This document shows, piece after piece, positions 851-33,849 of a stretch of 36,858 nucleotides of DNA. The translations under genes and the position numbers were made by a program. The notes under the pieces are model-generated. The model saw only the letters and a list, made by a program, of their open reading frames with translations, had not been told where the DNA came from and searched no databases. The stretch covers positions 1 to 36,858 of the forward strand of contig PHEX01000007.1 of assembly GCA_002843005.1 (NCBI GenBank), written 5' to 3'. How positions within the stretch are numbered: position 1 is the first letter of the stretch; the number at the start of each line of letters is the position of its first letter. This stretch comes from Candidatus Anoxymicrobium japonicum. Its GTDB lineage: Bacteria > Actinomycetota > Geothermincolia > Fen-727 > Anoxymicrobiaceae.

Positions 851-868
851 ACCAACTGGCGGAAATAT
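835..868 (+). repeat. Imperfect short direct repeat across a gene junction
   Basis: CTGGCGGGAAATATA (835-849) is followed seven bases later by CTGGCGGAAATAT (856-868). The first copy carries the end of the PilX-like frame just before its stop. The second carries the ribosome binding site and the first bases of the next gene's ATG. It looks like a small local duplication that supplied the translation start region of the downstream gene. Confidence 0.5.
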
Positions 869-1574
869 GAAAAGGTGCCCTGAGCACCTGGATGAAGAAA
901 CGATGGTGTCTTGCATGGATTGCGGCAGGGATTTCTGCCGCGTGTGCAATCCCATGCTGGGCGCCGGGCAGTGGTGCCCGATCTGCTACGACAGGTCGTT
1001 GAAAGACCTCACGGCGAAAGAGACGGGCGACGAGAAGCGGAAAAAGCGCGGGCGGCTGAGGATAAGTCTGAGAAATGCCGCGGTATTCACAAAAAAACAT
1101 TTTCCCATTTCTTTTTCACAGAAGATTTCATGGGAGGGGGAACCACCACTTGTGAAGGCATGGCCCGGGTTCCTGGTTGCCGCAATCGGGGGCGGCGGGC
1201 TCTGGATGGCAGCCGTGCTTCTGACGCGCAGGCGCCTTGCAATCTTTTCCATATGCGTGGCACTCCTCGTGGCATGTGCGGTGGTCCGGTCACTGGGTGT
1301 GAAATACGGGGTCGCGACAGCGGTGCTTGCTTCTGCGACAGTGATGTTGGCGCTGGTCGCGGGCGAGTTGATCGTGCAGTTGCTGTACCGTCTTGAGGTC
1401 ATCAGGAAACTCGATCTTGTGCGGGCCTGGGCAAACACTCCCAACAGCCGTATCTATGCCATTTATTACAAGAAGCTGCTGCTGGCGCGGATGCTTCCAG
1501 CGGTGGTGATCGCGTTCATTGTCGGGTGGTGGCCGCTCAAGCGCAAATTAGGCTGGAAAGGTTTCTCGACTTAA
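867..1574 (+). CDS. Zinc-finger (B-box-like) multi-pass membrane protein, function unknown
   Basis: This 235-residue protein starts with a cysteine-rich module of B-box/zinc-ribbon type, with candidate ligands C4, H7, C16, C19, C24, C27, C37 and C40. A basic linker (about residues 50-90) follows. Then come about four hydrophobic segments: roughly residues 97-119, 122-141, 146-170 and 207-226. A cytoplasmic metal-binding head on a small membrane domain is the likely layout; the role is unknown. The ATG at 867 is preceded by GGCGGAA. The stop codon TAA (1572-1574) lies inside the palindromic element at 1571-1670. Similar B-box-plus-transmembrane proteins occur in many bacteria without an assigned function. 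Confidence 0.75.
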   Translation: MKRCPEHLDEETMVSCMDCGRDFCRVCNPMLGAGQWCPICYDRSLKDLTAKETGDEKRKKRGRLRISLRNAAVFTKKHFPISFSQKISWEGEPPLVKAWPGFLVAAIGGGGLWMAAVLLTRRRLAIFSICVALLVACAVVRSLGVKYGVATAVLASATVMLALVAGELIVQLLYRLEVIRKLDLVRAWANTPNSRIYAIYYKKLLLARMLPAVVIAFIVGWWPLKRKLGWKGFST

Positions 1575-1670
1575 CTTTTGGGGAGCAGGTCTTTTTTCTT
1601 AAGTCGGTACACGTTATCTGGATTGAAGGCCATCGACTCTGAGAAAAAAGACCTGCTCCCCAAAAGTTAA
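1571..1670. repeat. Palindromic element E1 (TTAACTTTTGGGG family), 29-bp arms
   Basis: The left arm (1571-1599) begins TTAACTTTTGGGGAGCAGG. The right arm (1642-1670) is its exact 29-base reverse complement, with a 42-base spacer. The outer TTAA on the left contains the stop of the zinc-finger membrane protein. The outer TTAA on the right contains the stop of the minus-strand peptidase. The hairpin may act as a bidirectional terminator between these convergent genes. It shares its outer bases with the elements at 7943, 14147, 32631 and 33730. Confidence 0.9.
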
Positions 1671-2671
1671 GTCAGGATGTTCGCCCCGTTTTCCGTCAGC
1701 AGCACCGTTTCCTCGTGGCGCGCGCCGAACTCGCCTTCGATGTAGACGCCCGGCTCGATAGTGAAGACCATGCCGGGCTCGAGTGTGTCAGTTGAGAGGC
1801 TTGACAGGGTTGGCTTCTCGTGCGCCTCGAGGCCGACGCCGTGCCCGAGCCCGTGAACGAAGTTCTCGGCGAAACCGAGCGCTTCGAGCCGTTCGCGCGC
1901 GGCGCGGTCGACGTCTGCCGCCGCCACGCCGGGAGCGAGGATCGCGAACGCGGCGTCTGACGCCTCGCGCACCACATCGGTGACCCGCGCCTGGAGTTGA
2001 GTTGGCTCACCGAGGCAGATTGTCCTGGTGACGTCGCAGCAGTAGCCGTCCTTGAGCGCGCCGAAATCGATGACCACCAGGTCGCCTTGCTCGAGCCGCC
2101 GGTCGGTGATTCGCGCGTGCGGCATCGAGGAGTTCGGGCCGGAGGCTACGATAGTGTCAAACGCGGGTTTGTCCGCCCCGGCGCTCATCATCAAAAAATC
2201 AAGGCGGGCGGCGAGTTCGCGTTCTGAAACGCCGGGTGAGATCATGGGGAGCAGGTTCTCCCAGGCGCGCCGCGCACACCCGGCCGCGAGGCGGATGGCC
2301 TCGATCTCTGTCGGGTCTTTGCGCTCGCGCATGGTTTCGACGACCTTGCTTGTGAACTCGATTGTCGAGTCGGGCAACGACTTGATGAGCCTTTGCTGGA
2401 AAGCGATTGTGGACGAGTCTTCGAGCCCAACGGCGCCCTGGCGCTTGTGCAGGCTCGCGGCAATCGACTCGGTGATGTCGCGCGTGACGATATTGACGTT
2501 CCAGTTGGCCGTTTCGCGAGCCACCTGCTCGCGGTAGCGGCCGTCCGTGAAAATGGTGGCCGCCTCTCCTGTGATGACCGCGACAGCGCTCGAGCCCGTG
2601 AAGCCACTCAGGTACCGGACGTTTTCAGCCTTTGTGATTACAAGCGCGTCGAAGAATAAGGGGTCAGGCAC
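1667..2671 (-). CDS. pepP: Xaa-Pro aminopeptidase, M24 family
   Basis: This 334-residue creatinase/aminopeptidase-P-fold metallopeptidase removes N-terminal residues that precede proline. The N-terminal domain carries the typical NVRYLSGFTGSS. The C-terminal pita-bread domain has all five metal ligands: Asp in VVIDFGA, Asp in CDVTRT, His in HGLGHGVG, Glu in IEPGVY and Glu in RHEETVLLT. The first helix of the family (about 10-15 residues before 'DALVIT') is missing. The reading begins with GTG inside a palindromic repeat, whose bases encode the N-terminal MPDPL. The same repeat provides GGAAAGG six bases upstream of the GTG. The stop lies in another repeat (E1). In many bacteria pepP directly precedes efp on the same strand; here it is inverted and separated from efp by a glycosyltransferase. 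Confidence 0.93.
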   Translation of the reverse strand: MPDPLFFDALVITKAENVRYLSGFTGSSAVAVITGEAATIFTDGRYREQVARETANWNVNIVTRDITESIAASLHKRQGAVGLEDSSTIAFQQRLIKSLPDSTIEFTSKVVETMRERKDPTEIEAIRLAAGCARRAWENLLPMISPGVSERELAARLDFLMMSAGADKPAFDTIVASGPNSSMPHARITDRRLEQGDLVVIDFGALKDGYCCDVTRTICLGEPTQLQARVTDVVREASDAAFAILAPGVAAADVDRAARERLEALGFAENFVHGLGHGVGLEAHEKPTLSSLSTDTLEPGMVFTIEPGVYIEGEFGARHEETVLLTENGANILT

Positions 2672-2692
2672 CGTCTACCTTTCCGTCTACCT
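2660..2692. repeat. Repeat element E2 (GGGGTCAGGCACC family), single arm carrying a translation start
   Basis: The plus strand reads GGGGTCAGGCACCGTCTACC followed by TTTCCGTCTACC. The same sequence recurs at 17726 and, in the reverse sense, at 20672-20703. On the minus strand it reads GGAAAGG, six bases, then GTGCCTGACCCC. The GTG (2671-2669) is the apparent start of the peptidase gene and GGAAAGG (2684-2678) is its apparent Shine-Dalgarno. Confidence 0.85.
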
Positions 2693-2757: not shown

Positions 2758-3864
2758 GTGAACATACTATTTCTTTGCTGGAGAGACGTAAAGAACCCGA
2801 GGGCCGGGGGGGCTGAGGTTTACATCTTTGAAGTGGGCAAGAGATTGAACGCGCGCGGCCACAGTGTCACGCTTTTCACGGCGGCGTTTCCCGGTTGCGC
2901 GCCGGAGGAGTCGATAGATGGCGTGCGGGTAATCAGGCAGGGCGCGCAGGTTACAGTGCAGTGGCGGTTTTACAGGTGGTGGAGGAGGCAGGGGCAAAAC
3001 GACGGCTACGACACGGTCGTTGAAACGGTCAACACAATCCCGTTTCTTACGCCTCTTTATATTCGTGGGGGAAAGATGCGCCGAAAAGCGCTGTTTTTCC
3101 AGCTTTGCGGTCGTGTATGGTGGTACGAGAGCGTATTCCCGCTCAACGTGATCGGTTTTCTTTTAGAGCCGCTTTACCTCCTGGCATACCGGCGGACCCA
3201 CGTGGCCACTATCTCGGAATCGAGCAGGAAAGACCTTGTGAGACACGGTGTGCCCGGGCGGCTTGTCGATATCTGCCCAGTGGGAATTGACGCGCGGCAG
3301 CCGGAAACGATTGCGTCCGGGGGCGATGGGCTGAATATACTGTTTGTCGGGCGACTTACACCGTCAAAGCGGCCAGATCATGTCATAAAGGCTTTTGCGA
3401 AAATACGCCTAACGCGCGCCGACGCCAGGCTGTGGATCGTCGGTGACGGCAAGCCTCGCTTCAAGGCCGGGCTCGAGCGGCTTGTCCGGGCGCTTGGGCT
3501 CGAGCGGGATGTCACATTTTTCGGACGGGTTTCAGAGGACGGGAAAGCGCGGCTCATGAGAGAAGCGCATGTGATCGCGGTAACCTCGGTCAAAGAGGGA
3601 TGGGGGCTGGTGGTGACAGAGGCGGCCGCGCGCGGCACTCCCGCTGTCGTGTACGATGTGGACGGGCTTCGCGATTCGGTTCGCGGCGGCGTAACCGGCG
3701 TGGTCTGCGGGGAGAACACTCCCGAAGTGCTCAGCCGCGAAGTTCTTGCGCTTGCGGCCGATGCGTTTCGCCTTGAGAAAATGAGAAATAACGCGCGCGC
3801 GTTCAGCAGTGAGTTCACCTGGGAGAAGGCAACGGAGGCATTTGAGCGTTTCATCGGATCGTGA
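2758..3864 (+). CDS. GT4-family glycosyltransferase
   Basis: This 368-residue GT-B-fold retaining glycosyltransferase probably transfers a sugar from a nucleotide donor to a lipid or polysaccharide acceptor at the inner membrane face. The N-terminal domain has the acceptor-side signature GGAEVYIFEVGKRL and HSVTLFTAAF. The C-terminal donor domain opens with ILFVGRLTPSKRP. It carries the EX7E-type motif in EGWGLVVTEAAA, followed by GTPAVVYDVDGL. It starts with GTG at 2758 preceded by AGGA. The stop is 18 bases before efp, so it is probably co-transcribed with efp-nusB, although functionally unrelated. The sugar and acceptor cannot be predicted from the sequence. Confidence 0.92.
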   Translation: MNILFLCWRDVKNPRAGGAEVYIFEVGKRLNARGHSVTLFTAAFPGCAPEESIDGVRVIRQGAQVTVQWRFYRWWRRQGQNDGYDTVVETVNTIPFLTPLYIRGGKMRRKALFFQLCGRVWWYESVFPLNVIGFLLEPLYLLAYRRTHVATISESSRKDLVRHGVPGRLVDICPVGIDARQPETIASGGDGLNILFVGRLTPSKRPDHVIKAFAKIRLTRADARLWIVGDGKPRFKAGLERLVRALGLERDVTFFGRVSEDGKARLMREAHVIAVTSVKEGWGLVVTEAAARGTPAVVYDVDGLRDSVRGGVTGVVCGENTPEVLSREVLALAADAFRLEKMRNNARAFSSEFTWEKATEAFERFIGS

Positions 3865-3882
3865 TATTGAACTGGAGGCAGG

Positions 3883-4443
3883 ATGTCTGTATCAACAGCG
3901 GAATTTCGAAACGGACTTGTGCTCGACCTTGACGGGCCGCTTATGCGCATTATCGAGTTTCAGCACGTGAAACCCGGCAAGGGCGGAGCTTTTGTCAGGA
4001 CAAAACTCAAAAACGTCGAGACCGGGAAAGTTATCGACAAGACGTTTCGCGCGGGGGAGAAGCTCGAGGAGGCGGTGCTCGAGCACAGGCGCATGCAGTA
4101 CCTGTACAAGGATGGCGGCAACGACATCTTCATGGATCTCGAGAGCTTTGAGCAGGTTCACGTGGCGGCATCTGTGATCGGCGAGGACGCGAACTTTCTG
4201 GTGGAAAATCAGGAGTTGAGCGTTTTCACGAGAAATGGAAACGCGGTGACGATTGAGTTGCCGCCAGCGGTAACGTTGCGTGTTTCGAGTGCGGAACCGT
4301 GGCTCAAGGGCGACACCTCGAGTGGCGCCACAAAGCCGGTGACGCTCGAAACGGGGCTGGTCGTCCAGGCGCCGCTTTTTGTCAACGTTGGAGACGCGCT
4401 CAAGGTGGACACCCGGACAGGGCGCTACATGGAAAGGGCCTAG
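3883..4443 (+). CDS. efp: Translation elongation factor P
   Basis: This 186-residue, three-domain factor binds between the P and E sites of stalled ribosomes and speeds peptide bond formation at polyproline stretches. The domain I tip loop reads VKPGKGGAF, placing Lys33 at the position that is post-translationally modified in EF-Ps of the lysine type; no modification enzyme is in the window. The last domain has the expected ETGLVVQAPLFVNVGD and ends DTRTGRYMERA. The ATG has GGAGGC upstream. The stop overlaps the nusB start (TAGTG), showing translational coupling. The efp-nusB pairing upstream of pyrimidine genes is common in Gram-positive and related genomes. Confidence 0.98.
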   Translation: MSVSTAEFRNGLVLDLDGPLMRIIEFQHVKPGKGGAFVRTKLKNVETGKVIDKTFRAGEKLEEAVLEHRRMQYLYKDGGNDIFMDLESFEQVHVAASVIGEDANFLVENQELSVFTRNGNAVTIELPPAVTLRVSSAEPWLKGDTSSGATKPVTLETGLVVQAPLFVNVGDALKVDTRTGRYMERA

Positions 4444-4877
4444 TGGTGTCGAGGGGACAGAGCAGCCGGGGTCACCAGCGCAAGTACGCGTTGCGAGTCC
4501 TCTTTGAGATGGACAGCAACAGGACGACTGTGCGCGAAGTAATGGATGGCAAGCGGCGCGCCGGCGAGGATGGGCCGGGGGATTTGGCGATTGAGCTCAT
4601 CGAGGGCGTTGTCCGGCACTTGCCGGAGTTCGACGATATCATCGGCAGGTACGCCGAGGGTTGGGACATCGAGCGCATGCCTGGGGTGGATCGCAACATC
4701 ATTCGCATGGCGCTCTACGAGCTGTTCTTTACAGACATACCACCGGGAGCGACTATCAATGAGGCCGTTGAGCTTGCCAAGGTTTATTCAACCGATGAGT
4801 CGGGCAAATTCGTGAACGGCGTGCTGGGCCGCGTGACCCGTGACAGGGAAGAGGGAAAATTGTCCTTGCCATCGTGA
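4443..4877 (+). CDS. nusB: Transcription antitermination factor NusB
   Basis: This 144-residue all-helical protein binds boxA RNA with NusE (ribosomal protein S10) in antitermination of rRNA operons. It has the family start RGHQRKYALRVLFEMD, the central IERMPGVDRNIIRMALYEL and the late PPGATINEAVELAKVYS with FVNGVLGRV. The start is GTG at 4443, overlapping the efp stop, or GTG at 4446; GGAAAGG at 4431-4437 fits 4446 slightly better. The gene is followed by the PyrR-controlled leader, so read-through from efp-nusB would pass the pyrimidine attenuator. Confidence 0.96.
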   Translation: MVSRGQSSRGHQRKYALRVLFEMDSNRTTVREVMDGKRRAGEDGPGDLAIELIEGVVRHLPEFDDIIGRYAEGWDIERMPGVDRNIIRMALYELFFTDIPPGATINEAVELAKVYSTDESGKFVNGVLGRVTRDREEGKLSLPS

Positions 4878-4906
4878 TGGAACAGTGCTAATCTTTTTCA
4901 TGGAGA

Positions 4907-4938
4907 CCCTTTAATCTGGTTCGGAGAAACCGGGAAGG
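4907..4938 (+). promoter_or_regulatory. PyrR-binding RNA hairpin of the pyr operon leader
   Basis: The leader reads CCCTTTAATCTGGTT, then CGGAGA, then AACCGGGAAGG. CTGGTT and AACCGG pair (one G-U) around a loop containing GAGA. Outer CCTT can pair with AAGG across an internal bulge. This matches the known PyrR-binding anti-antiterminator, with its conserved CCUUUAA, GAGA-type loop and GGGAAGG. When UMP is plentiful, PyrR should stabilise this hairpin and favour the terminator that follows. Confidence 0.8.
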
Positions 4939-4970
4939 AAGGAAACTTGAAGACAGGAACCACAAAAGAC

Positions 4971-5005
4971 GTCTTGCCGATTTTCGGCGGGGCGTTTAAC
5001 TTTTT
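4971..5005 (+). terminator. Intrinsic terminator of the pyr attenuator
   Basis: GTCTTGCCGA (4971-4980) pairs at all ten positions, counting G-U pairs, with TCGGCGGGGC (4984-4993) around a TTT loop. GTTTAACTTTTT follows. The U-tract is interrupted by AAC because it coincides with the left end of a TTAACTTTT repeat element. Position and order after the PyrR site fit a classic attenuator. Confidence 0.7.
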
Positions 5006-5137
5006 CCTCCTCCTCGAGTGAGAAAACGCATAATGGGGTCAAACCAAAATATGCGTTTTGCAACAGATAAATGATGGGAGTGCCCATAAAAACGCATATT
5101 TTGGTTTGACCCCATTATGCGTTTTCAAAAGTTAAAC
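4994..5137. repeat. Nested palindromic element E3 in the pyrR leader
   Basis: The outer arms are GTTTAACTTTT (4994-5004) and its complement within 5126-5137. Inside lies a second perfect inverted repeat with 37-base arms at 5023-5059 and 5089-5125, starting AAAACGCATAATGGGGTCAA. Each arm is itself bounded by AAAACGCATA and TATGCGTTTT. The 29-base loop contains a third small hairpin (ATGGG/CCCAT, 5074-5087). The inner unit recurs in opposite orientation at 33747-33849. Confidence 0.92.
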
Positions 5138-5159
5138 GGAAGAAGAAAGAGTTGACCAC

Positions 5160-5705
5160 ATGAGTTTTGAAGCGCGGACGAAGGTGATAGACGCGGAGGA
5201 TGTCGCGAGGGTCGTCACACGCATATCACACGAGATTCTGGAGCGGAACAGGGGCGTCGAAGACATTGTACTGGTTGGAATCCGCACCCGCGGGGTTTTT
5301 CTCGCGCGGCGACTTGCCACCGTTATTGAACGAATCGAAGGCTGCGCGATCGAGGTTGGCGAGCTCGACGTGTCTTTTTACCGCGACGACATCGCTTCCA
5401 GAGGAGGCGCCGCGAACGTCGGCGTCACCCGGATCGACTTTGACATCAACGACAAGCGGGTTGTGATTGTGGATGATGTCCTTTATACGGGGCGCACTAT
5501 CCGGGCGGCGATGGACGCGCTGATGGATTTCGGGAGGCCGCGGGTGATCCAACTGGCGGTGCTTGTCGATCGCGGGCATCGCGAGCTTCCTGTCAGGGCC
5601 GACTACGTTGGAAAGAACCTCCCGACATCGGGAAACGAGAGGGTCAAGGTCTCGCTCGAGGAGATAGACGGGACGGACATGGTAGAGATCGGCGAGGAGG
5701 CATGA
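5160..5705 (+). CDS. pyrR: PyrR, pyrimidine operon attenuator / uracil phosphoribosyltransferase
   Basis: This 181-residue RNA-binding regulator binds the pyr leader when UMP is bound. Family members also convert uracil and PRPP to UMP. The PRPP-binding signature [13 protein letters not shown] is at residues 101-113. The family pattern VGIRTRG is near residue 39, and the C-terminal part has [17 protein letters not shown]. Its own leader holds a PyrR target, so it is autoregulated together with the biosynthetic genes. The stop overlaps the pyrB start. The ATG is preceded by a purine-rich GGAAGAAGAAAG that begins right after repeat E3. Confidence 0.97.
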
Positions 5706-6640
5706 TGCCGGATGTGACGACAGATCACAGGCACCTGCTGTCGATATCAGATCTCGACGCTTCGGAGATACTCAATCTCCTGGACTCAGCGCGCTCGTTC
5801 GCGGAAGTCTCGATGAGGCCGGTCAAGAAAGTCCCCGCGCTTCGTGGCAGGACCATTGTCAACATGTTCCTCGAGCCGAGCACGCGCACAAAGATCTCTT
5901 TTGAAGTAGCTGCGAAGCGCCTCTCGGCCGACGTCATGAACTTTTCTCCAGCCGCGAGCAGCTTCTCCAAGGGTGAGAGCCTCAAGGACACGGGCAATAC
6001 GATAGTGGCAATGGGCGTGGACGCGCTGGTGATCAGATCCTCGAGCGCCGGCGCGCCTCATATTCTTGCCGATTGGGTGGACTGCTCGGTCATCAACGCG
6101 GGCGACGGCATGCACGAGCACCCCACCCAGGCTTTGCTGGACCTGTTCACGATGCGCGAGTGGCTGGGCCGGCTCGAGGGCCTCAAGGTCGCTATAGTCG
6201 GAGACATAGACCACTCGAGGGTCGCGCGCAGTAATATCCACGCGCTCAACAAGGTTGGCGCTGAAGTGATGCTCGTGGCGCCCCGATCGCTGTTGCCCGA
6301 GGCGGTAGAGGAGATTGGCGTCACAGTCACCAGCTCGCTTGATGAGGCGCTTGAGTGGTGTGACGTGCTCTATCTCCTGCGTATCCAGGTAGAGCGTGTG
6401 AATGAGTCCCGGTTTCCCTCCCTGCGCGAGTACATGCTGCTGTACGGACTTACTCAGACGCGCTGGTCGCGCTTGAAGCGCAAGCCGCTGGTGATGCATC
6501 CCGGCCCGATGAACCGTGGCGTGGAGATAGCGTCCGAGGTAGCCGACGAGGTCGAGCCGGTGATAATCGCTCAGGTGTCGGCCGGAGTCGCCGTGCGGAT
6601 GGCGGTTCTGTACGACATTCTTGGAGGCAGCCGTGACTGA
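5705..6640 (+). CDS. pyrB: Aspartate carbamoyltransferase, catalytic subunit
   Basis: This enzyme condenses carbamoyl phosphate with aspartate to carbamoyl aspartate, the committed step of pyrimidine synthesis; it acts in the cytoplasm as a trimer. It has the carbamoyl-phosphate motif FLEPSTRTKISFE near residues 56-68 and HEHPTQALLD near 138-146. Late motifs are LLRIQVER and MHPGPMNRGVEI. There are two adjacent start codons, 5702 and 5705. AGGAGG at 5695-5700 leaves four bases to 5705 and only one to 5702, so 5705 was chosen (311 residues). The gene overlaps the pyrR stop, and its own stop overlaps the pyrC start. No pyrI regulatory subunit is present. Confidence 0.97.
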   Translation: MPDVTTDHRHLLSISDLDASEILNLLDSARSFAEVSMRPVKKVPALRGRTIVNMFLEPSTRTKISFEVAAKRLSADVMNFSPAASSFSKGESLKDTGNTIVAMGVDALVIRSSSAGAPHILADWVDCSVINAGDGMHEHPTQALLDLFTMREWLGRLEGLKVAIVGDIDHSRVARSNIHALNKVGAEVMLVAPRSLLPEAVEEIGVTVTSSLDEALEWCDVLYLLRIQVERVNESRFPSLREYMLLYGLTQTRWSRLKRKPLVMHPGPMNRGVEIASEVADEVEPVIIAQVSAGVAVRMAVLYDILGGSRD

Positions 6641-7946
6641 TGGCGTTCTCATAAAAGGCGGCACGGTCCTTACGTTCCCGCAAGGGTTCATCAACGATGC
6701 CGACGTAAAGATCAAAGGTGGAATCGTGCGCAAGGTCGGATGCGGCCTGCGGCCGGATGGCTGCGACGTGGTGGACGCCTCGGGATGCGTTGTGGCGCCC
6801 GGCTTCATAGAGATGCACGCTCACCTTCGCGAGCCGGGGGCGGAGTACAAGGAGGATGTCGGCAGCGGGAGCCGCGGCGCGGCGCGCGGCGGCTACTCAG
6901 CCGTGTTTTGCATGCCAAACACGGAGCCTTCGATAGACAACTCCTCGGTCGCGGAGTACGTGTTCGACAGGGGAGAAGATGAAGGGCTGTGTATGATCCT
7001 CCCGCACGGGGCCATCACCATGGGCCGGAAAGGGCAGACGCTTGCGCCGATGGGAGAAATGGGCGCGTGCCGCGCGCGGGTCAAAGGGTTCAGCGACGAC
7101 GGGAATCCAGTGGTCGACTCTGAGATAATGCGCCGCGCGATGGAGTACGCCCGCACCATGGGGGCGCTCATAATTTCCCACAGCGAAGAGAAGAGCCTGT
7201 CGGTGGGCGGACAGATGAATGAGGGACGTTACGCGACGCTCCTCGGGTTGCGGGGAATACCGCCCGAGTCGGAACAGATCGGCGTTTTTCGTGATATATG
7301 CCTTGCGGAGATGACCGGCGCGAGATTGCACCTCGCCCATCTTTCCACGGCGGGCTCGGTGGAACTCGTGCGCGCGGCGAAGCGGCGTGGCCTGCCGGTT
7401 ACCTGCGAGGTCGCGCCTCATCACTTTTCGCTGGACGACTCCAGCTTGATGGGGTACGACACGAACATGAAGATGAACCCTCCGCTTCGCTCAAAAGAGG
7501 ATGTGGCGGCTATTCTCGAGGCGCTCTCCGACGGCACCATTGACGTGATCGCGACCGACCACGCGCCGCACGCGCCGCACGAGAAAGAAACCGAGTTTGA
7601 CCGCGCCCAGTTCGGGTGTGTGGGCATGGAGACGTGCTTCGCGCTGGTGATCACGCGGCTCGTGGACACGGGAGTGCTCAGCCTCTCAGACGCGATATCA
7701 AAACTTACCGTGGCGCCCGCGCGCGTCATGAGCATGGAGCGATTGGGCTATCACCCGGCGGTAGAGGAAGGCGCGCCCGCGAACATCGTTGTTTTTGACC
7801 CAGATCTCAAATGGACGGTTGACCCCGCGGCGTTCGAGTCACGCTCGCGCAACACGCCTTTCGCGGAGTGGCAGGTCAAAGGCAAGGTAGTGCACAAGGT
7901 GTTTCGCGGAAAGATGGTCGTCAGGGACGGTAAGCTCTCATGTTAA
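6633..7946 (+). CDS. pyrC: Dihydroorotase
   Basis: This zinc amidohydrolase of 437 residues cyclises carbamoyl aspartate to dihydroorotate. The metal-binding HAH is at residues 62-64 in [29 protein letters not shown] and [12 protein letters not shown] supply the remaining histidines and aspartate of the family. The length and pattern match the Bacillus-type (class I) enzyme. GTG at 6633, five bases after GGAGG, is preferred over the upstream in-frame TTG at 6621. The C-terminus RDGKLSC ends in a TAA that is part of the small palindrome at 7943-7967. Confidence 0.97.
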
Positions 7947-9073
7947 CTTTTGGGGGTCAAAAGTTAAGGGGGGTGCTGGTTCTCGAGGATGGGACTACAT
8001 ATCAGGGAGTCGCGTTCGGCGCGCCCGGCGAGTTCTTCGGGGAAGTCTGCTTCAACACGAGCATGACCGGATATCAGGAAATATTGACAGACCCGTCGTA
8101 CACGGGGCAGATGGTCAACATGACGTACCCGCTCATCGGCAACTACGGGGTGAACACCGAGGATTTCGAGTCCGACCGCGTCCACATGGGCGGCTTCATA
8201 GTGAGAGAATTGTCACGACTGCGCTCCAACTGGCGCTCCTCGGGCGACCTGGACGGTTTTCTAAAAAGCAACGGCACAGTCGGCCTCGAGGGCATTGACA
8301 CGCGCGCGCTCACGAGGCGCATTCGCGCAAAAGGCGCGATGAAGGCCGCATTGAGCACCGTCGACCTCGATCGCGACAGCCTTCTCGCTCGCCTCGAGGG
8401 CGCGCCGGGGCTCGTCGGGCGGGATATGGTTCGAGAGGTAACGATCTCGAAGCCGTACGTATGGGATGACGTCACGACGGACGAGGCCGGTGACCCGCGG
8501 TTCGAGATCGTCGCCTGTGACTTTGGGATCAAGCGTAATATTTTGAGGCTGCTTGCCAGTCTTGGCTGCCGCGTCACTGTTGTCCCGGCGAGCGCGACGG
8601 CGGAGGAGATACTCAATCTGAACCCCGACGGCGTGTTTCTCTCCAACGGCCCCGGCGATCCGGCGGCGGTCACGTACGCGATAGACACTGTTCGCGCTCT
8701 GCTGGGGAAAAAGCCGATCTTCGGCATTTGTCTGGGGCACCAACTGCTCGGGCTGGCCCTTGGCGGCAGGACATACAAGCTCAAATTCGGGCACCGCGGC
8801 GCCAACCAGCCGGTCATGCGCAAGGACACCGGGCGCGTCGAGATAACCGCGCAGAACCACGGTTTCGCGGTGGACACGGAAAGCCTGGCCCAGTGCGAGT
8901 ACTTTGATGTGGAACTCACGCACTGGAATCTCAACGACATGACATCCGAAGGGATGAGATGCGAAAAGGCGGGGGCCTTCTCGGTTCAGTACCACCCGAA
9001 GGCCGCGCCGGGACCGCACGACTCCCGTTACCTTTTCGAGGCGTTTCTCGACCTCATGAAGGAGTGGCGCTAA
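7940..9073 (+). CDS. carA: Carbamoyl-phosphate synthase small (glutaminase) subunit
   Basis: This 377-residue class I glutamine amidotransferase hydrolyses glutamine and channels ammonia to CarB. The N-terminal domain has [15 protein letters not shown] and [11 protein letters not shown]. The nucleophile Cys264 is in [11 protein letters not shown], and the catalytic His352 is in QYHP. The third triad position is unusual: the family's Glu (HPE) reads Lys354 (HPK, codon 8999-9001). The first residues, MLTFGGQKL, are encoded by palindrome E4. Family members normally begin close to the residues aligned with [13 protein letters not shown] at 7973 is an alternative start but has no spaced ribosome binding site. 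Confidence 0.95.
7943..7967. repeat. Minimal palindrome E4 (TTAACTTTTG ... CAAAAGTTAA) at the pyrC-carA junction
   Basis: TTAACTTTTG (7943-7952) and CAAAAGTTAA (7958-7967) are perfect complements separated by five bases. This is the shortest form of the TTAACTTTTGGGG family. It contains the pyrC stop and is read through in another frame as residues 2-10 of carA. Confidence 0.85.
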
Positions 9074-14211: not shown

Positions 14212-15020
14212 GCTTCGTGAATATCGTCGGGATACGCTACACGCCATAGATACAGGCCTCTCGCAGGGAGCGGATCCGCGCAGGGCTTCCCGCTTCCGTC
14301 CAGATGACGCCTGAGATCATCGAGGCTCATGCGGCCGCGCCCCACAGAGAAGATCGCCCCCGCCATTACCCTGACCATGCGGTACAAAAAAGCGTTCGCG
14401 ATGACGCGGATGCATAGCAAATCCTGGCTGACGCGGACGACATCGCACTTCAGCACGTTACGCACCGCGGAGACATCGCTTCCACCTTTGACGCGAAACG
14501 CGGAAAAATCATGCTCGCCCGGAAAAAGCGCGCACGCCTCTTCCATCATGCGGAGGTCGAGCGGCTTCGCCACGTGAAAGACGCGCTCCTCGAGGATCGG
14601 CGAAGGAGATTTCCTGTTGAGTATGAAATATCGGTACTCGCGCCACAACGCGTCTCGCCTGGGATCAAACCCCTCCCTGGCGCGCGCAAGCGCTGTTACC
14701 GCGATGCCATCGGGCAAGAGCGCGTTCAATCCGATGAGCGCCCTGTCCGTATCCACCTCACGCGCCAGGTCGAACGCCGCGACCTGTCCAACCGCGTGCA
14801 CGCCCTTGTCGGTGCGGCCCGCGTAACGCGCGACAACCTCTGTGCCCGTATAAGTAGAAGCGGCGCTCTCCAGCGCCCCATGGATCGTCGCGAGGCCCGG
14901 CTGCCTCTGGAAACCGTGGAACGAGGTTCCAACGTACTCGAGTGTCAAACAGTAACAATACCGTCTATCAAGAGTGTCTTGACAGGCGCTCTGGCGACCG
15001 GGCGCTGACACCAACGTCAT
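14208..15020 (-). CDS. truA: tRNA pseudouridine(38-40) synthase
   Basis: This enzyme makes pseudouridine at positions 38-40 of tRNA anticodon arms. Catalytic Asp71 is in AGRTDKGVHAVGQV. The family entry LTLEYVGTSFHGFQRQPG is at about 25-42, and LYRMVRVMAGA with the late ARGLYLWRV is present. The reading has about 24 extra residues before the usual start; ATG at 15020 overlaps the helicase stop by four bases (ATGA), which supports translational coupling from that start. Its stop lies in element E6. Confidence 0.95.
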   Translation of the reverse strand: MTLVSAPGRQSACQDTLDRRYCYCLTLEYVGTSFHGFQRQPGLATIHGALESAASTYTGTEVVARYAGRTDKGVHAVGQVAAFDLAREVDTDRALIGLNALLPDGIAVTALARAREGFDPRRDALWREYRYFILNRKSPSPILEERVFHVAKPLDLRMMEEACALFPGEHDFSAFRVKGGSDVSAVRNVLKCDVVRVSQDLLCIRVIANAFLYRMVRVMAGAIFSVGRGRMSLDDLRRHLDGSGKPCADPLPARGLYLWRVAYPDDIHEA

Positions 15021-17710
15021 AACGCTGGCACTCTGTGCTCGATCATCGACTCCAGGGACGAGTAGCTCACCACACCACGATCCACGGCGTCTATTGCTCT
15101 GCGCAAGTTGCTCGTGAGAACCGGATCAACTGAGACTTCGGCAATCTGTCTCATCAGATCGATAATCTGCTTCATCGTACGCACCATGTCGCCAACAGAC
15201 CTGTCAGGAAACCGGCTGAGCATCTGCTCGAGCCCTGCCCCTCTCGCCCAGAAAAACGCGGCTTCCCCGAAGCCCGTGTCGGGCGACCCAACGAGGTCGA
15301 GCCCGCGATTGCCCTCAGCGGCCTTTATGTCATCGAACACGCTGTTTAGCCAGTCAAGCGCATCGCCAAGCTTGCCCTGGAGATGTTCGTAACGAGCTCT
15401 CGCGACGCGCCTGGTTTCATCTGTCTCGGCCTCGCGCGACTCGTAAATAAACCACGACGCGAAAGCCGCGAGCTCCTCGGGTTCGAGTTGCGACAGTATC
15501 CCGGCATCGAGCGCCTCGACCAGCAAAAGATCGCACTCGTTATAAACGCGCCTGAGCATGTCGCCCTTACCTGTCATATCCTCACCTTTCACAAAACCAA
15601 AACTGTTCAAGACATCGAGCACGTCCACCAGCCGCCGCGACACGACATCGTGTCCCGAGTCCCTTTCCTTGCGAGCGCTATCCATCTGCCGGGATATCTT
15701 TTCCGCGCGCCGCGCGGATTGCGCGCATCGCTCTCGGCGCTCGCAATCGTTGCAACGGTTGCCCTTGATATCTTGCTCGAGCATTGTGATCGCCGTGAAC
15801 AGATCAATCTCCTCGGGTGTGCCACCGGCGCCGGCCGTGATCGAGCCGGCGTTCCTGCAAATCTCCTCTATCTTTGCTCCCGCCTGCTTGCGAACTTTCC
15901 TTGTCGGCGATGTGATCCTGGCAATGTCAACAACCCCAACCACGCGCGGTGGGTGCTTGAGGATCCGCTCGGAAACTTTCCTGTAACGTCCCATCGGATC
16001 CACAACAAGCACTCCGCCTGGCGTATTACGGCCCTCCTGGCGCTTGCGCACCACGGCCAGCGCCTTCTCCGAGCCTCGATGACCCACAAGAATGACATCG
16101 CCTGGCTGGAGCCGCGTCATAGTCTCTCTTACCTCGCGCTTTCGCCGCTCCTTTGCGATGGTGGAAAGCCGTCGCTGCGTTTTGGCAAGCTGCATCTCGA
16201 GCTGACGGAACTTCCGCGCGTCGGCATCCGGGCAGCGGCTCGCGTCGATCTCCTGATCGAGATCCTCGTCGAGAGCCTCCAGCCGCAACTGCAGTGTGAC
16301 CACGCGCTTATCCGCGCAGTACTGGGCAAAGGAGAGGTTTAGCAGGCGCTGAGCGCCTGTGAGGTCGTGCTCGGCCATGATATTCACCGCCATGTTGTAA
16401 GAGACCTCAAACCGCGATACGACAGGGTGCGGTTCGCGTTTCACAAGCGCGCGTATCTGGTCCACGTTAAAAAACTTCTGGTGAAGGATAACCGAGTAAC
16501 CGATCTCGTCGATCCCGCGCCGCCCCGCCCGCCCGGTGAGTTGCTTGTACTCGCCCGGGGTCAGCGGCCTGTGGGCCTCGCCGTTCCACTTGGAAAGTGT
16601 CTCAATAACCACGGTGCGCGCGGGCATGTTCATCCCGAGTGAAAGCGTCTCGGTCGCAAAGACGACCTTGATGAGTCCGCTTGAAAAAAGCTCTTCTACG
16701 GCTTCTTTGAAGAGGGGAAGAGCGCCCGCGTGGTGCGCCGCTACGCCCGCCTTCATCGCTGTCGCGAAGCTCTCGTAATTCAGGCACGCGAGATCCGCCG
16801 GATCGAGAAAACGCATCTTCTCGTCGAGGTACGCCTCGATAGCCTTTGCCTCGGCGGGGCTTGTCAGCGACATCCCATCCTTGCGGCAATAGGTGACGGA
16901 ATCCTGGCATGCGGCGCGAGAAAAAAGGAAGTATATCGCCGGCAGCATATCCCGCCGTTTGAGCTCCCTTATGACTTCAGTCCTTCTGGGCGCCAGGTTC
17001 GGCCCTCTCCCGCCACGACGTCCACTTCCCGATCCGGACGAACGATACTTGAGCGCCTCTATCTGCTCACTGATGACGCGGGTGAGATTTTTGTCGAAGA
17101 GCCCGCAAAGCGCTTTGCCAACGAAGTAGTGGTTGCGCAATTTGACGGGCCGCTCTTTCGAGAAAACGACATCCACGCCACCTCTGATGCTGTTCATCCA
17201 ATCGGCCAGGTCGCGCGCGTTGGATACTGTCGCGCTCAAAGCTACGATCTTCACCGTGTCGGGCAAAAGAATTACTATCTCTTCCCAGACCGCGCCCCTT
17301 TCCGGATCCTGCATGTAATGGACCTCATCTAAGACGACCACTCCCAGTTCATCCAGTTTCGAACTCGATTCATAGATCATGTTGCGCAGCACCTCGGTCG
17401 TCATCACGACCAGTGGCGCCTCGCCATTGATGCAGTTGTCCCCCGTGAGAAGGCCCACGTCGCCTTGCGGGTACACGCGGGACAAATCCCTGAACTTCTG
17501 ATTGGAGAGCGCCTTCATGGGCGTCGTATAGAAGAACTTCTTCCCCTGAGATCGCGCCTGCTCCAACGCGTACTCGGCGACCACTGTCTTGCCCGAACCC
17601 GTGGGAGCGGCCACGAGCACAGACCTGCCTTCCGAGAGCCTGTCAATCGCGTCGCACTGGAACTCATCCGGCGAAAACCCGTATTTTTTTCTGAATTCAT
17701 CGGTGTTCAT
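15017..17710 (-). CDS. Ski2/Mtr4-like (HelY-type) DEAD/DExH RNA helicase
   Basis: This 897-residue superfamily 2 helicase is probably an RNA-unwinding enzyme in RNA turnover or processing. The Walker A loop APTGSGKT is at 35-42, DEVH at 128-131 and SAT near 159. The second RecA domain has TETLSLGMNMPAR and the arginine finger motif QLTGRAGRRG. The middle has the rRNA-processing/arch region (LQPGDVILV) and a cysteine group CNDCERRERC, equivalent to that of actinobacterial HelY proteins. The C-terminus is a DSHCT-type helical domain. A Gly/Ser/Arg-rich stretch lies between motif III and the second RecA domain. The ATG at 17710 is preceded by no ribosome binding site, so a leaderless transcript is possible. 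Confidence 0.93.
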   Translation of the reverse strand: MNTDEFRKKYGFSPDEFQCDAIDRLSEGRSVLVAAPTGSGKTVVAEYALEQARSQGKKFFYTTPMKALSNQKFRDLSRVYPQGDVGLLTGDNCINGEAPLVVMTTEVLRNMIYESSSKLDELGVVVLDEVHYMQDPERGAVWEEIVILLPDTVKIVALSATVSNARDLADWMNSIRGGVDVVFSKERPVKLRNHYFVGKALCGLFDKNLTRVISEQIEALKYRSSGSGSGRRGGRGPNLAPRRTEVIRELKRRDMLPAIYFLFSRAACQDSVTYCRKDGMSLTSPAEAKAIEAYLDEKMRFLDPADLACLNYESFATAMKAGVAAHHAGALPLFKEAVEELFSSGLIKVVFATETLSLGMNMPARTVVIETLSKWNGEAHRPLTPGEYKQLTGRAGRRGIDEIGYSVILHQKFFNVDQIRALVKREPHPVVSRFEVSYNMAVNIMAEHDLTGAQRLLNLSFAQYCADKRVVTLQLRLEALDEDLDQEIDASRCPDADARKFRQLEMQLAKTQRRLSTIAKERRKREVRETMTRLQPGDVILVGHRGSEKALAVVRKRQEGRNTPGGVLVVDPMGRYRKVSERILKHPPRVVGVVDIARITSPTRKVRKQAGAKIEEICRNAGSITAGAGGTPEEIDLFTAITMLEQDIKGNRCNDCERRERCAQSARRAEKISRQMDSARKERDSGHDVVSRRLVDVLDVLNSFGFVKGEDMTGKGDMLRRVYNECDLLLVEALDAGILSQLEPEELAAFASWFIYESREAETDETRRVARARYEHLQGKLGDALDWLNSVFDDIKAAEGNRGLDLVGSPDTGFGEAAFFWARGAGLEQMLSRFPDRSVGDMVRTMKQIIDLMRQIAEVSVDPVLTSNLRRAIDAVDRGVVSYSSLESMIEHRVPAL

Positions 17711-17716
17711 GCATTC

Positions 17717-17722
17717 ATTGTA
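17717..17722 (-). promoter_or_regulatory. Possible -10 box for a leaderless helicase-truA transcript
   Basis: On the minus strand GATACAAT contains TACAAT and ends six bases before the helicase ATG. Transcription would begin at or next to the start codon, fitting the lack of a Shine-Dalgarno. Repeat E7 occupies the expected -35 area. The call is tentative. Confidence 0.35.
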
Positions 17723-17725
17723 TCA

Positions 17726-17812
17726 GGGGTCAGGCACCGTCTACCTTTCCGTCTACCGCAACATGGGGTCAGGCACCGTCTACCGCTTTAGCGGTAGACG
17801 GTGCCAGACCCC
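17726..17812. repeat. Repeat element E7 (GGGGTCAGGCACC family), solo arm plus full palindrome
   Basis: GGGGTCAGGCACCGTCTACC at 17726-17745 continues TTTCCGTCTACC as in E2. After GCAACAT, a complete palindrome (17765-17812) starts GGGGTCAGGCACCGTCTACC and returns as GGTAGACGGTGCC-A-GACCCC, closing on CGCTTTAGCG. One base is missing in the right arm. It separates the divergent helicase and corA genes. Confidence 0.9.
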
Positions 17813-20638: not shown

Positions 20639-20703
20639 GGGTCAGGCACCGTCTACCTTCTACGCAGTAGAGGTAGACGGAAAGGTAGACGGTGCCTGAC
20701 CCC
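20638..20703. repeat. Palindromic element E8 (GGGGTCAGGCACC family), 22-bp arms
   Basis: GGGGTCAGGCACCGTCTACC plus TT at the left (20638-20659) is the perfect complement of the right arm (20682-20703). The tip holds a small CTAC/GTAG hairpin and an extra GGTAGACGG that duplicates part of the right arm. The left end overlaps the stop of the zinc-ribbon protein. It lies between convergent genes and could terminate both. Confidence 0.92.
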
Positions 20704-20713
20704 TGACCTGGCT

Positions 20714-20749
20714 CAACGCATAAAATGGTTTGACCCCATTATGCGTTTT
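20714..20749. repeat. Solo arm E9 of the AAAACGCATAATGGGG family at the xseB 3' end
   Basis: The plus strand reads AACGCATAAAATGG and then TTTGACCCCATTATGCGTTTT-like sequence. This matches the right arm of E3 (5089-5125) apart from a small gap. On the minus strand GAAAACGCATAA gives the last residues and the stop of xseB (20739-20741). Confidence 0.85.
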
Positions 20750-20978
20750 CTTCTTCGTCCTCCAGGGAGACGCTCTCGATTTCGCCTTCCATGGAATCGA
20801 CCAGCAGTTCTACCTTTGCCTGAGCTCCATCGAGTTTTTCCTGGCAATACTTGATAAGCTCGACGCCGCGCTCAAAAAGCGACAGGCTTTGCTCGAGTTC
20901 GAGTTCGCCGCTCTCAAGCGAGTTGGTGATCTTCTCAAGCTCCTCTATCGCTTCCTTGAAAGTAGGCTCATTCTTCAA
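20739..20978 (-). CDS. xseB: Exodeoxyribonuclease VII small subunit
   Basis: This 79-residue helical hairpin subunit coats XseA and is needed for single-strand exonuclease activity. It has the family pattern TFKEAIEELEKITNSLESGELELEQSLSLFERG, running in two helices, with LIKYCQEKLDGAQAKVE after it. TTG at 20978 is preceded by AGGA close upstream. The last residues ENA and the stop are encoded by repeat E9. It follows xseA with a six-base gap, as in most genomes. Confidence 0.94.
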   Translation of the reverse strand: MKNEPTFKEAIEELEKITNSLESGELELEQSLSLFERGVELIKYCQEKLDGAQAKVELLVDSMEGEIESVSLEDEEENA

Positions 20979-22330: not shown

Positions 22331-25183
22331 TTACTGTCGGTTGCCGTACATGGCGCGCTCGGCGATTATCGGACGTGATCCTGTGACCATGGTGGAAACC
22401 TGCCACTCGCCGGAAACAGTGTCCGCGATGTTATAGGTCTTCCGCGTGTGAGCGGGCAACGTCTCCACGGGACCGGGAACCGGCCCGGCGGGCGTCATGT
22501 ACGTGATAGTCACCACGGTGTCCTCATCACCAGGGTTCTGCGCCAGGACCCACGTCTCGAACCCGGCGCCGGTGCACCCCTCGGCAAGGTACCACGTTGT
22601 CTCCGGCTGGGTAACCCCGATGGAGTCATGCCCCCAACTCCGGTTGTTGCCGTACATGGCGCGCTCGGCGATAACCGGCATCGTTGAGTTTACCGTGGTC
22701 GAGACAGACCACTGATTCGGCACAAAGTCGGCGACAAAAAACGTCTTCCTGGAGTTTGCCGGCACAATCGCGGTTGGCCCGCTCGCCGGACCGGATTCGG
22801 TCATAAAAGCCAGAGTAACGCTTGCCGCTTCATCGTTAGGGTTCTGTACCAGAACCCACGTCTCGAACCCGGCGCCGGTGCACCCCTCGGCAAGGTACCA
22901 GTTGAGCGACGGGCCGGGCGCGCCTACCGAATCATGCCCCCATGTCCTGCCGTTCCCGTACATAGAGCGCTCAGCGATCACGGGACGGTTGGAGGACACA
23001 ACTGTTGAAACGGACCACTCGTCAGGAACGGAATCGGCCACATTGAAAGTCATTCGTGAGTTGCCTGGCAACTTTGCCGTGGGGCCCGTTTCCGGTCCAT
23101 GAGACGTCATATAACTCAAAGTGATCCGCGCGTCCTCACTGTTCGGGTTCTGCACGAGTATCCACGTCTCCATGCCGCCGTTTGTGCAACCCTCGGCGAG
23201 ATACCATTTGGCAAGTGGCGTTTTTGCCCCGATAGAGTCGGTGCCGACCGTCCGGCTGAAAGCGTATACCGCCCGCTCAGCCACAACAGCGCGTTGTGAA
23301 GTGACGGTAGTCGAGACGTCATACTCATTTGGAACCCAATCCGCTACGTTGAACGTCATCCTCGAGCCGGGCAGGATAGTGACAGACGGCCCGTCGAATT
23401 TTCCCTGGCTCGTCTGAAAATCCAGTTTTACGTTGGTCTCCAGTATAGCATTCGGGTTCTGCACTAAAACCCACGTCTCGAACCCGTCGCCGGTGCACCC
23501 TTCTGCGAGGTACCACGTCTCAGACGGACTGGACGCGCCTACCGAGTCGTGCCCCCAGGCGCGCGTTGTGGGCCCGGCGGGCGGCGCCCCAGCGCCCACT
23601 CCGCCGATCGTATCTTCGTAGTCGCCGTAAGCTGCTGTGCTGCCCGAGACAATGCCTTGCGCCACAACCTGAATATTGTCGGTCCGCCTTGTCCGCAGCG
23701 CTTTGACCGTCCACGACACGGCGCCAGCGCTGCCTGTCATGTCTATCCCTGCGACAGGTTCATTTGCCGGCCCCGAGACAATCTCATAGTCGGCGCTTCC
23801 GGCCTGGAGCGTCGCCGTGGGATTCTCGACGCTATACTGTTCGGCCATCGGCCCGGATCCGCGGTAATTTACATCCGCCGTGACGGCAAAAGTCTGGCCC
23901 GCTGTTACACTGTACGGCTTGTTGACATCCACAATCCACGGCGCCGCGATCATCGCCCAGCGATTCGAGTATTCCCAGAGTGTGTCTACGAACTGCGCCT
24001 GGTTGAAGTTGACATCGGGGCCAGAAGGCGATCCTTCGTACCACGGATCGTGAACGATAAAAATCCCAAGATCGTCGTTGTATCCTTTGACCACCCTGAA
24101 GTGCCCTGACGATGGAGGATCCCAGTAGTAGGTAAGCGCGATCACAGGAATGTCCTGCGAGATCAGATCCTTGATGTCCGCGTACCGCCGGTCATAGTTG
24201 GCCGAACCGTCCTCCCAGAACGCGGATGCCATCCCGTAACCTGATGAGCGCTCGTGATAACCACGAAGATTGATGTTCTGTATCGAAACACTCTTATTGG
24301 AAAAATGCGCCGCTCTCGCAAGCTCGCTGTTACAAACGCCGTAGCTGACGCCCTGGTTCGCGACTCCGGCGATCTCACCCTGGTTGACATCCGGGCCAAA
24401 GTAATCCATCACCATCTCCAGCGACGCGGGGCCGCACCACCAGCTCGTCTCCTGGGCGTGATACGGAATGCCTTCAATGTCATAGGCCACGGGCCCTGTG
24501 CCAGGTTGAAACACCGGCGCTCCCGCGCCGCGTGAGCTCCTGCTTTTTGCCACGCTCGCGCCGGTCACCGTCTTGCTCGACATCTCGTCAGTCGTCCGTG
24601 TGAGTTTGGATGCGCTACACGGCTTGTCTGAGGGTTCTTCTTTTGAAAACACGGGCGCGTAAACCTCAGCTATCCGCGAGCCATCAGACTTGAAAAACCA
24701 GTAGATGCGCTTGTCGGGCGCGATCCTCAGCGAAGGAACAGACAGCGAAGAAACTCCCATGCCTTTTCGTTTCATCCATCCTTTAACCATCGAAGAGGCT
24801 TCGCTCGCGGACACAAGTGGAAATTTGTCAAGAGAATAGTCGCTGTACCAGTGCCAATCCCCGTGCTCGGCATCGACACCGACAGTGGAAATGGTCTTAT
24901 TCGAACTATCCAGCACCGGAACCATGTACTCCGACGGCTTCCCATCGCTACTACTGATGAGAAGCGGTTCGCCCGCGCGCGCGCTACGCCAGCGCGGCAT
25001 GCCACCCGGATGGTTCCCGGCGGCGGCAACCTTCAGTATGAGCCTGGCCGCGTTTTCCTTCGCCTCCGACGGTGGCACAGGCCCACGCGCGGCGGCCCAT
25101 GCGCACGCTGATATGGACAAAAACAGGATAAACGCCAGTGCCGCCACCAACGGCCTTGTGGCAATCAACTCAAACCGTCGCAT
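22331..25183 (-). CDS. Secreted C39-like cysteine peptidase with four DUF5719-like repeats
   Basis: This protein of about 950 residues has a signal peptide (PLVAALAFILFLSISACAWAAA, cleavage near residue 32). A PepSY-like or linker region follows, then a C39-like papain-fold domain (about 235-430). Candidate catalytic residues are Cys250 in WWCGPASL, His361 in SGHFRVVKGY and Asp379 in IVHDPW. An Ig-like stretch (about 440-560) leads to four tandem repeats of about 95 residues. These carry WYLAEGCT, ETWVLVQNPN, a Pro-rich loop, FNVADxVP and VVAERAMYGN, a DUF5719-like beta domain. It probably acts at or outside the cell surface in peptide or cell-wall processing; the substrate is unknown. The ATG at 25183 lies six bases after GGAAGG; an earlier ATG at 25189 is too close. 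Confidence 0.85.
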   Translation of the reverse strand: MRRFELIATRPLVAALAFILFLSISACAWAAARGPVPPSEAKENAARLILKVAAAGNHPGGMPRWRSARAGEPLLISSSDGKPSEYMVPVLDSSNKTISTVGVDAEHGDWHWYSDYSLDKFPLVSASEASSMVKGWMKRKGMGVSSLSVPSLRIAPDKRIYWFFKSDGSRIAEVYAPVFSKEEPSDKPCSASKLTRTTDEMSSKTVTGASVAKSRSSRGAGAPVFQPGTGPVAYDIEGIPYHAQETSWWCGPASLEMVMDYFGPDVNQGEIAGVANQGVSYGVCNSELARAAHFSNKSVSIQNINLRGYHERSSGYGMASAFWEDGSANYDRRYADIKDLISQDIPVIALTYYWDPPSSGHFRVVKGYNDDLGIFIVHDPWYEGSPSGPDVNFNQAQFVDTLWEYSNRWAMIAAPWIVDVNKPYSVTAGQTFAVTADVNYRGSGPMAEQYSVENPTATLQAGSADYEIVSGPANEPVAGIDMTGSAGAVSWTVKALRTRRTDNIQVVAQGIVSGSTAAYGDYEDTIGGVGAGAPPAGPTTRAWGHDSVGASSPSETWYLAEGCTGDGFETWVLVQNPNAILETNVKLDFQTSQGKFDGPSVTILPGSRMTFNVADWVPNEYDVSTTVTSQRAVVAERAVYAFSRTVGTDSIGAKTPLAKWYLAEGCTNGGMETWILVQNPNSEDARITLSYMTSHGPETGPTAKLPGNSRMTFNVADSVPDEWSVSTVVSSNRPVIAERSMYGNGRTWGHDSVGAPGPSLNWYLAEGCTGAGFETWVLVQNPNDEAASVTLAFMTESGPASGPTAIVPANSRKTFFVADFVPNQWSVSTTVNSTMPVIAERAMYGNNRSWGHDSIGVTQPETTWYLAEGCTGAGFETWVLAQNPGDEDTVVTITYMTPAGPVPGPVETLPAHTRKTYNIADTVSGEWQVSTMVTGSRPIIAERAMYGNRQ

Positions 25184-25212
25184 CTTCATCCTTCCATGCA
25201 ACCGGTGTCCGC

Positions 25213-33733: not shown

Positions 33734-33849
33734 CTTTGGGGTCATGAAAACGCATAATGGGGTCAAACCAAAATATGCGTTTTTATGGGCGCTCCCATCA
33801 TTTATCTGTTGCAAAACGCATATTTTGGTTTGACCCCATTATGCCTTTT
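33730..33849. repeat. Composite palindromic element E12, second copy of the E3 inner unit
   Basis: TTAACTTTGGGGTCA (33730-33744) is followed by an inverted repeat with 37-base arms at 33747-33783 and 33813-33849, starting AAAACGCATAATGGGGTCAA. The only arm mismatch is GCC in place of GCG near the right end. The loop is the reverse complement of the E3 loop with one base changed, so this copy is inverted relative to E3. The left end contains the stop of the preceding oxidoreductase. The right end contributes two bases of the stop of the minus-strand repeat protein. Confidence 0.92.

Follow-up and report, generated by a model that had tools for sequence, protein, structure and literature searches.

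We analysed a 36,858-nucleotide stretch of the Candidatus Anoxymicrobium japonicum genome (hereafter the window), in which the 5′ end of a peptidase gene, pepP, overlaps one arm of a dispersed repeat. The features at this locus are as follows.

867–1574, plus strand: gene for a CxxC-rich protein, the conserved downstream neighbour of pepP in two relatives (L258 and L260; neighbour comparison)
1568–1599, plus strand: arm of a second repeat family, supplying the stop codon of the convergent gene 867–1574 (inverted repeat I8)
1642–1673, minus strand: the other arm of the second family, supplying the peptidase stop codon (ACT TAA, 1669–1667; inverted repeat I8)
1667–2671, minus strand: gene for an M24B Xaa-Pro peptidase of 334 aa, with a complete catalytic domain and without the N-terminal helix (Pfam, AlphaFold2, PDB matches)
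2660–2692, minus strand: solo arm of the dispersed repeat, AGGTAGACGGAAAGGTAGACGGTGCCTGACCCC (13-mer core; 35 bp identical to 20670–20704, inverted repeat I5)
2669–2671, minus strand: GTG, the sole standard peptidase start before codon 50 (frame scan)
2675–2677, minus strand: in-frame TAG stop within the repeat, blocking upstream starts (sequence)
2678–2684, minus strand: Shine-Dalgarno (SD)-like GGAAAGG within the repeat (sequence, duplex energy)
2758–3864, plus strand: GT4 glycosyltransferase gene, pointing away from pepP and separated from the repeat GTG by 86 bp (Pfam PF00534, PF13439)
3883–4443, plus strand: efp (elongation factor P), which in relatives is divergent from pepP and lies at a much greater distance (PF08207, positions in relatives)

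Read on the minus strand, the repeat runs through GGAAAGG (2684–2678), TAGACG (2677–2672) and GTG (2671–2669) into CCTGACCCC, and the text across the junction of repeat and gene is GGTAGACGGAAAGGTAGACG GTG CCT GAC CCC, bearing out the original prediction that an SD-like GGAAAGG stands six bases before a GTG inside the repeat. The open reading frame that follows begins MPDPLFFDALVIT, giving a predicted N-terminal peptide of (M)PDPLFFDALVITK. An in-frame TAG six bases before the GTG (TAG ACG GTG) and a second TAG 15 bases further upstream both lie inside the repeat, and a search of the peptidase frame after the repeat GTG found no ATG, GTG or TTG until codon index 49, which leaves the repeat GTG, as had been claimed, as the only visible standard start from which the conserved strand DALVIT would be retained. 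Given these stops and the lack of another such codon before codon 50, translation must begin at the GTG of the repeat unless a non-standard codon is used, and because the blocking stop and the GTG are both in the repeat, this conclusion is independent of the sequence upstream of it. We infer from the reading frame that ribosomes would use the repeat GTG as the pepP start. With a canonical 16S tail assumed, the SD duplex at pepP has an energy of −9.6 kcal/mol, compared with a median of −8.0 for the best starts of other ORFs and −6.6 for background, and GAAAGG, aligned to the canonical anti-SD, sits about 4 nt nearer the GTG than ideal. A search upstream of pepP for a sigma-70-like promoter found none.

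Comparison with relatives lacking the element showed a longer N-terminus in those proteins, and not the equally short one that had been named as grounds for refuting the original prediction. The window protein starts MPDPLFF-DALVIT, with seven residues and no helix before the conserved strand, whereas relatives carry 14–19 residues there, forming a helix before a DALxVT strand. In the nearest relative (PMJJ01000103.1, Actinomycetota fen_680; 64% identity), the protein opens with MSEARVQRLLGLLEEQGL-DALLVT; its MxxRxxxLxxxL segment recurs in fifteen further relatives, with the fuller pattern MxxRxxxLxxxLxxxxL before the conserved strand, so that the helix segment is present in 16 of 16 aligned relatives, one column (R) being nearly invariant. 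The match to the Pfam Creatinase_N domain (PF01321, 128 positions) starts at model position 14 for the window protein, against position 1 for the relatives; the rest of this domain is present. Likewise, the AlphaFold2 model of the window protein (pLDDT 94.6, residues 1–4 below 50) has no first helix, and that of the fen_680 protein has one at residues 2–15, which confirms the earlier claim that the first family helix is missing before DALVIT.

The remainder of the protein is that of an M24B enzyme. Peptidase_M24 (PF00557) is complete (1–208 of 208), and D202, D213, H277, E306 and E320, established as metal ligands in the M24 family, occupy invariant alignment columns. PDB prolidases match the model at a TMq of about 0.9 or more, and the window protein has the fold, catalytic domain and metal-binding residues of the M24B Xaa-Pro peptidases and prolidases 5cdl, 1wy2 and 2zsg, differing from them in lacking helix 1 of the N-terminal domain. 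It is thus a truncated M24B Xaa-Pro peptidase, assigned by its catalytic domain; at the C-terminus it is 5 residues shorter than the fen_680 protein. In a relative-rate comparison of these two proteins using four family outgroups, unique changes numbered 13 (window) against 4 (fen_680) in the N-domain and 4 against 10 in the catalytic domain (Fisher p = 0.012, an exploratory test on small counts), a pattern that fits an enzyme still under constraint with a shifted N-domain.

These data bear on the strongest rival account, in which pepP was recently inactivated when its start and first helix were lost, leaving a pseudogene, and the repeat GTG stands there by chance and sees little use. The presence of the helix segment in all 16 aligned relatives, with its nearly invariant arginine column, the mild excess of N-domain changes and the absence of a clear promoter upstream would agree with this account; however, the gene retains 334 open codons with no frameshift, every metal ligand is kept, divergence of the catalytic domain is not raised and the remainder is predicted to fold with high confidence. 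We consider inactivation unlikely, though it is the alternative that deserves most weight.

The gene neighbourhood points to how the start was replaced. In three family relatives (L257, L258 and L260), pepP starts at an ATGA that overlaps the stop of a large upstream membrane-protein gene, and in three family genomes, pepP and efp are divergent with gaps of 16.0 kb (G002), 23.4 kb (G001) and 16.2 kb (G003). The window has the same divergent order with a gap of only 1.2 kb, which holds the glycosyltransferase gene, whose best relatives lie elsewhere. Downstream, the CxxC-protein neighbour is shared with L258 and L260; the upstream gene in fen_680 differs. The repeat is placed exactly where homology to the relatives ends, and sits at a synteny breakpoint, where pepP lost its upstream neighbour, its start codon and about 11 residues net. 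Together with the position of the repeat, the reduction of the gap from 16–23 kb to 1.2 kb indicates that a deletion or rearrangement took the old start.

A join of unrelated stretches at the multicopy 33-base repeat during assembly could mimic such a breakpoint: the genome is a metagenome-assembled one of 130 contigs with 172 copies of the repeat core, and another contig (C16) ends within a gene paralogous to the membrane-protein gene found upstream of pepP in relatives, the C16 protein having about 30% identity to several paralogues. Yet the ancestral neighbours stand in ancestral divergent order on both sides (CxxC gene, pepP, efp), an arrangement unlikely to arise from a random join, and since the stop and GTG lie in the repeat, the frame cannot start earlier and a misjoin would be possible only on the upstream side, making an artefact improbable. 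The original prediction, that the element simply landed in an intact pepP 5′ end and re-created its start, accords with the repeat lying exactly where homology stops, but is very improbable in that form, because no intact pepP 5′ end is present in the 86 bp separating the GTG from the divergent gene, and the gene overlapping pepP on its upstream side in relatives has been lost. What stands of that proposal is that the only standard start lies in the repeat and that the peptidase is otherwise intact; a simple landing does not, since the repeat marks a synteny breakpoint.

The explanation we favour, and regard as probable, is a rearrangement beside the 5′ end of pepP, after which a repeat arm supplied the start and the enzyme was kept. 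A deletion or rearrangement would have stripped pepP of its upstream operon partner, its original start codon and its first helix, leaving one arm of the dispersed palindromic repeat joined to pepP at about the FFDALVIT codons. By chance, this arm carries a purine-rich SD-like stretch and an in-frame GTG, at which ribosomes would now start, with MPDP from the repeat replacing helix 1; the truncated enzyme, keeping its catalytic domain, is probably still active. The element may have arrived first and the deletion followed, or recombination may have occurred between copies.

We next consider the repeat family itself, for which the genome sequence read comprised the stretches around repeat copies. 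The 13-base core, GGTGCCTGACCCC, occurs in at least 172 exact copies in the 1.77 Mb, 130-contig genome, six of them in the window, compared with 1 for a reversed-pattern control, a number far beyond chance. AGACG lies directly 5′ of the core in 166 of 172 copies, GGAAAGGTAGACG in 40 of 172, and the full GGAAAGGTAGACGGTGCCTGACCCC is found in 40 copies, forms without GGAAAGG being together commoner than the form containing it. The base directly 3′ of the core is T in 138 of 172 copies; the repeat therefore encodes MPDP and may also provide the initial base of codon 5 of the peptidase, with native sequence resuming at about FFDAL. An inverted partner lies within 90 bp of about 109 of the 172 cores, and such pairs form hairpins with energies between −45 and −52 kcal/mol (z about −10); the pepP copy belongs to the solo class (42 of 172), and its single arm showed no folding beyond background (z-score −0.09). 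The end of a long ORF lies within 60 nt of about 30% of copies, compared with 6% of random places. With more than 100 near-identical copies, mostly outside genes, and an inverted-pair structure, we take the repeat to be a REP/MITE-like family. An exact search of viral contigs for a repeat 20-mer found nothing, and a literature search with a repeat 12-mer in both orientations returned only an unrelated paper on a human-type gene; the motif is absent from the searched literature in a related context. An apparent orientation bias toward gene starts (51 forward versus 14 reverse) was rejected: in paired copies the reverse side forms the inside of the hairpin, and the same count made at random positions of these loci yields 24%.

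The original prediction further held that the repeat carries a portable translation start, which goes too far for the family as a whole. Across the 172 cores there was no enrichment of the GTG frame, with 15 long ORFs in this frame and 16 in frame +1, and in 33 of 172 copies the GTG frame stops at codon 5. The same SD-GTG block does recur in the window, as had been noted, at 17726–17750 (minus strand) and 20679–20703 (plus strand), yet a TGA directly after CCCC at both places limits the frame to four codons, MPDP-stop. Ten further long ORFs that open at repeat copies were scanned against Pfam: seven match no family and either look spurious or have another start, and the remaining three, CdsA-, OTCase- and Iso_dh-like, were rejected as repeat-started, a better start lying 12–16 codons downstream. 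More broadly, aspartokinase-, MurC-, OTCase-, CdsA-, Iso_dh- and GlmM-like genes (the first, second and last named from N-terminal sequence only) have a likelier start 9–16 codons past the repeat GTG, several with a clear SD. A genome search for other genes starting in the repeat, which had been proposed as a check, yielded one plausible case and no general use: a gene for a TMEM260-like TPR membrane protein (C16:20624–22858; 3125–5359, plus strand, of stretch L269) has GGAGAGG six bases before the repeat GTG, followed by the basic residues KKCVRRNHD, and no better start was found before its first membrane segment, suggesting that it may start at the repeat GTG. Plausible uses of this GTG among the 172 copies thus number two, pepP and perhaps this gene. 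A further reading, that the family is a mobile initiation block re-founding genes after 5′ loss, with MPDP-stop copies before ATGs serving as coupling leader peptides, is hard to credit. At 17710–17750 (minus strand), the MPDP-stop of the SD-GTG block (17726–17738) ends in a TGA a few bases before the ATG of an 897-aa ORF (15017–17710), with no SD evident between the two, and leader-peptide coupling to this ORF is possible from the arrangement.

Repeats at protein N-termini have precedents. REPs have been reported at the NH2 termini of ORFs, although many of these starts were thought to be perhaps wrong, translation beginning downstream and the REP thus being non-coding (PMC3733652); pepP differs in having no standard downstream start near its N-terminus. 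Like GTAG-tagged REPs and their RAYTs (PMC3733652, PMC2817692), the pepP repeat is short, high in copy, mostly intergenic and contains GTAG, and like them it often occurs as inverted pairs forming long hairpins. Unlike them, its single arm is not itself palindromic and its GTAG is internal to the paired element; it is neither a 20–40 bp palindrome with GTAG at one end nor associated with a RAYT flanked by the same repeat. The single Y1_Tnp found in the genome (C50:5537–5743; 3271–3822, minus strand, of stretch L262) has no core copy in its flanks, and its stretch is not among the core-holding loci, so a link between the repeat and this lone transposase was rejected. Upstream of the transposase gene lies a piece of a different palindromic family of the window (ATAATGGGGTCAAACCAAAATATGCGTTTT). 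As in the Rickettsia palindromic element RPE-1, expressed proteins with which at the N-terminus are cited in PMC3733652, repeat DNA enters the protein at pepP; RPEs are inserts in proteins, whereas the pepP repeat brings a start codon and replaces a helix. The pepP case is the same in kind as N-terminal REPs and RPE-1, and adds that the blocking stop and the only start both lie in the repeat and that relatives show what was replaced.

Other repeats also meet genes in the window. The second family (GACTTAACTTTTGGGGAGCAGGTCTTTTTTCT, with perfect inverted arms) provides the TAA stops of both convergent genes, pepP and 867–1574, so that pepP is framed by repeats at both ends. Its core, TTAACTTTTGGGG, has 5 copies in the window (expected 0.02); that at 7943–7955 contains the end of a pyrC-like ORF (6621–7946) and the first codons of a carA-like ORF (7940–9073; ATG TTA ACT TTT GGG G..), which seems to take its opening residues, MLTFGG, from the repeat. 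A third palindromic family (AAAACGCATAATGGGGTCAAACCAAAATATGCGTTTT) lies at 5022–5126, 20712–20751 and 33745–33849, its two 105-nt copies being in opposite orientation, 98% complementary and 28.6 kb apart. Two large minus-strand ORFs, 33848–36625 and 22331–25378, contain long tandem repeats of 165 bp (35304–36528) and about 306 bp (22530–23557), respectively.

Judged from the sequence, the pepP start is a real but rare, one-off reuse of a REP/MITE-like repeat after rearrangement, with presumed use of the GTG, and not a general mechanism. The case is ordinary in kind and instructive in detail. It calls for caution in annotating start sites near repeats: the repeat-derived start looks right at pepP, and in murC-, argF-, cdsA-, lysC-, Iso_dh- and glmM-like genes, the likelier native start is closely preceded by an in-frame GTG of the repeat. 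At pepP, where the same repeat bases hold the stop closing the frame to upstream reading as well as the replacement start, the locus illustrates how, in a small genome, a repeat can rescue a gene that lost its start.
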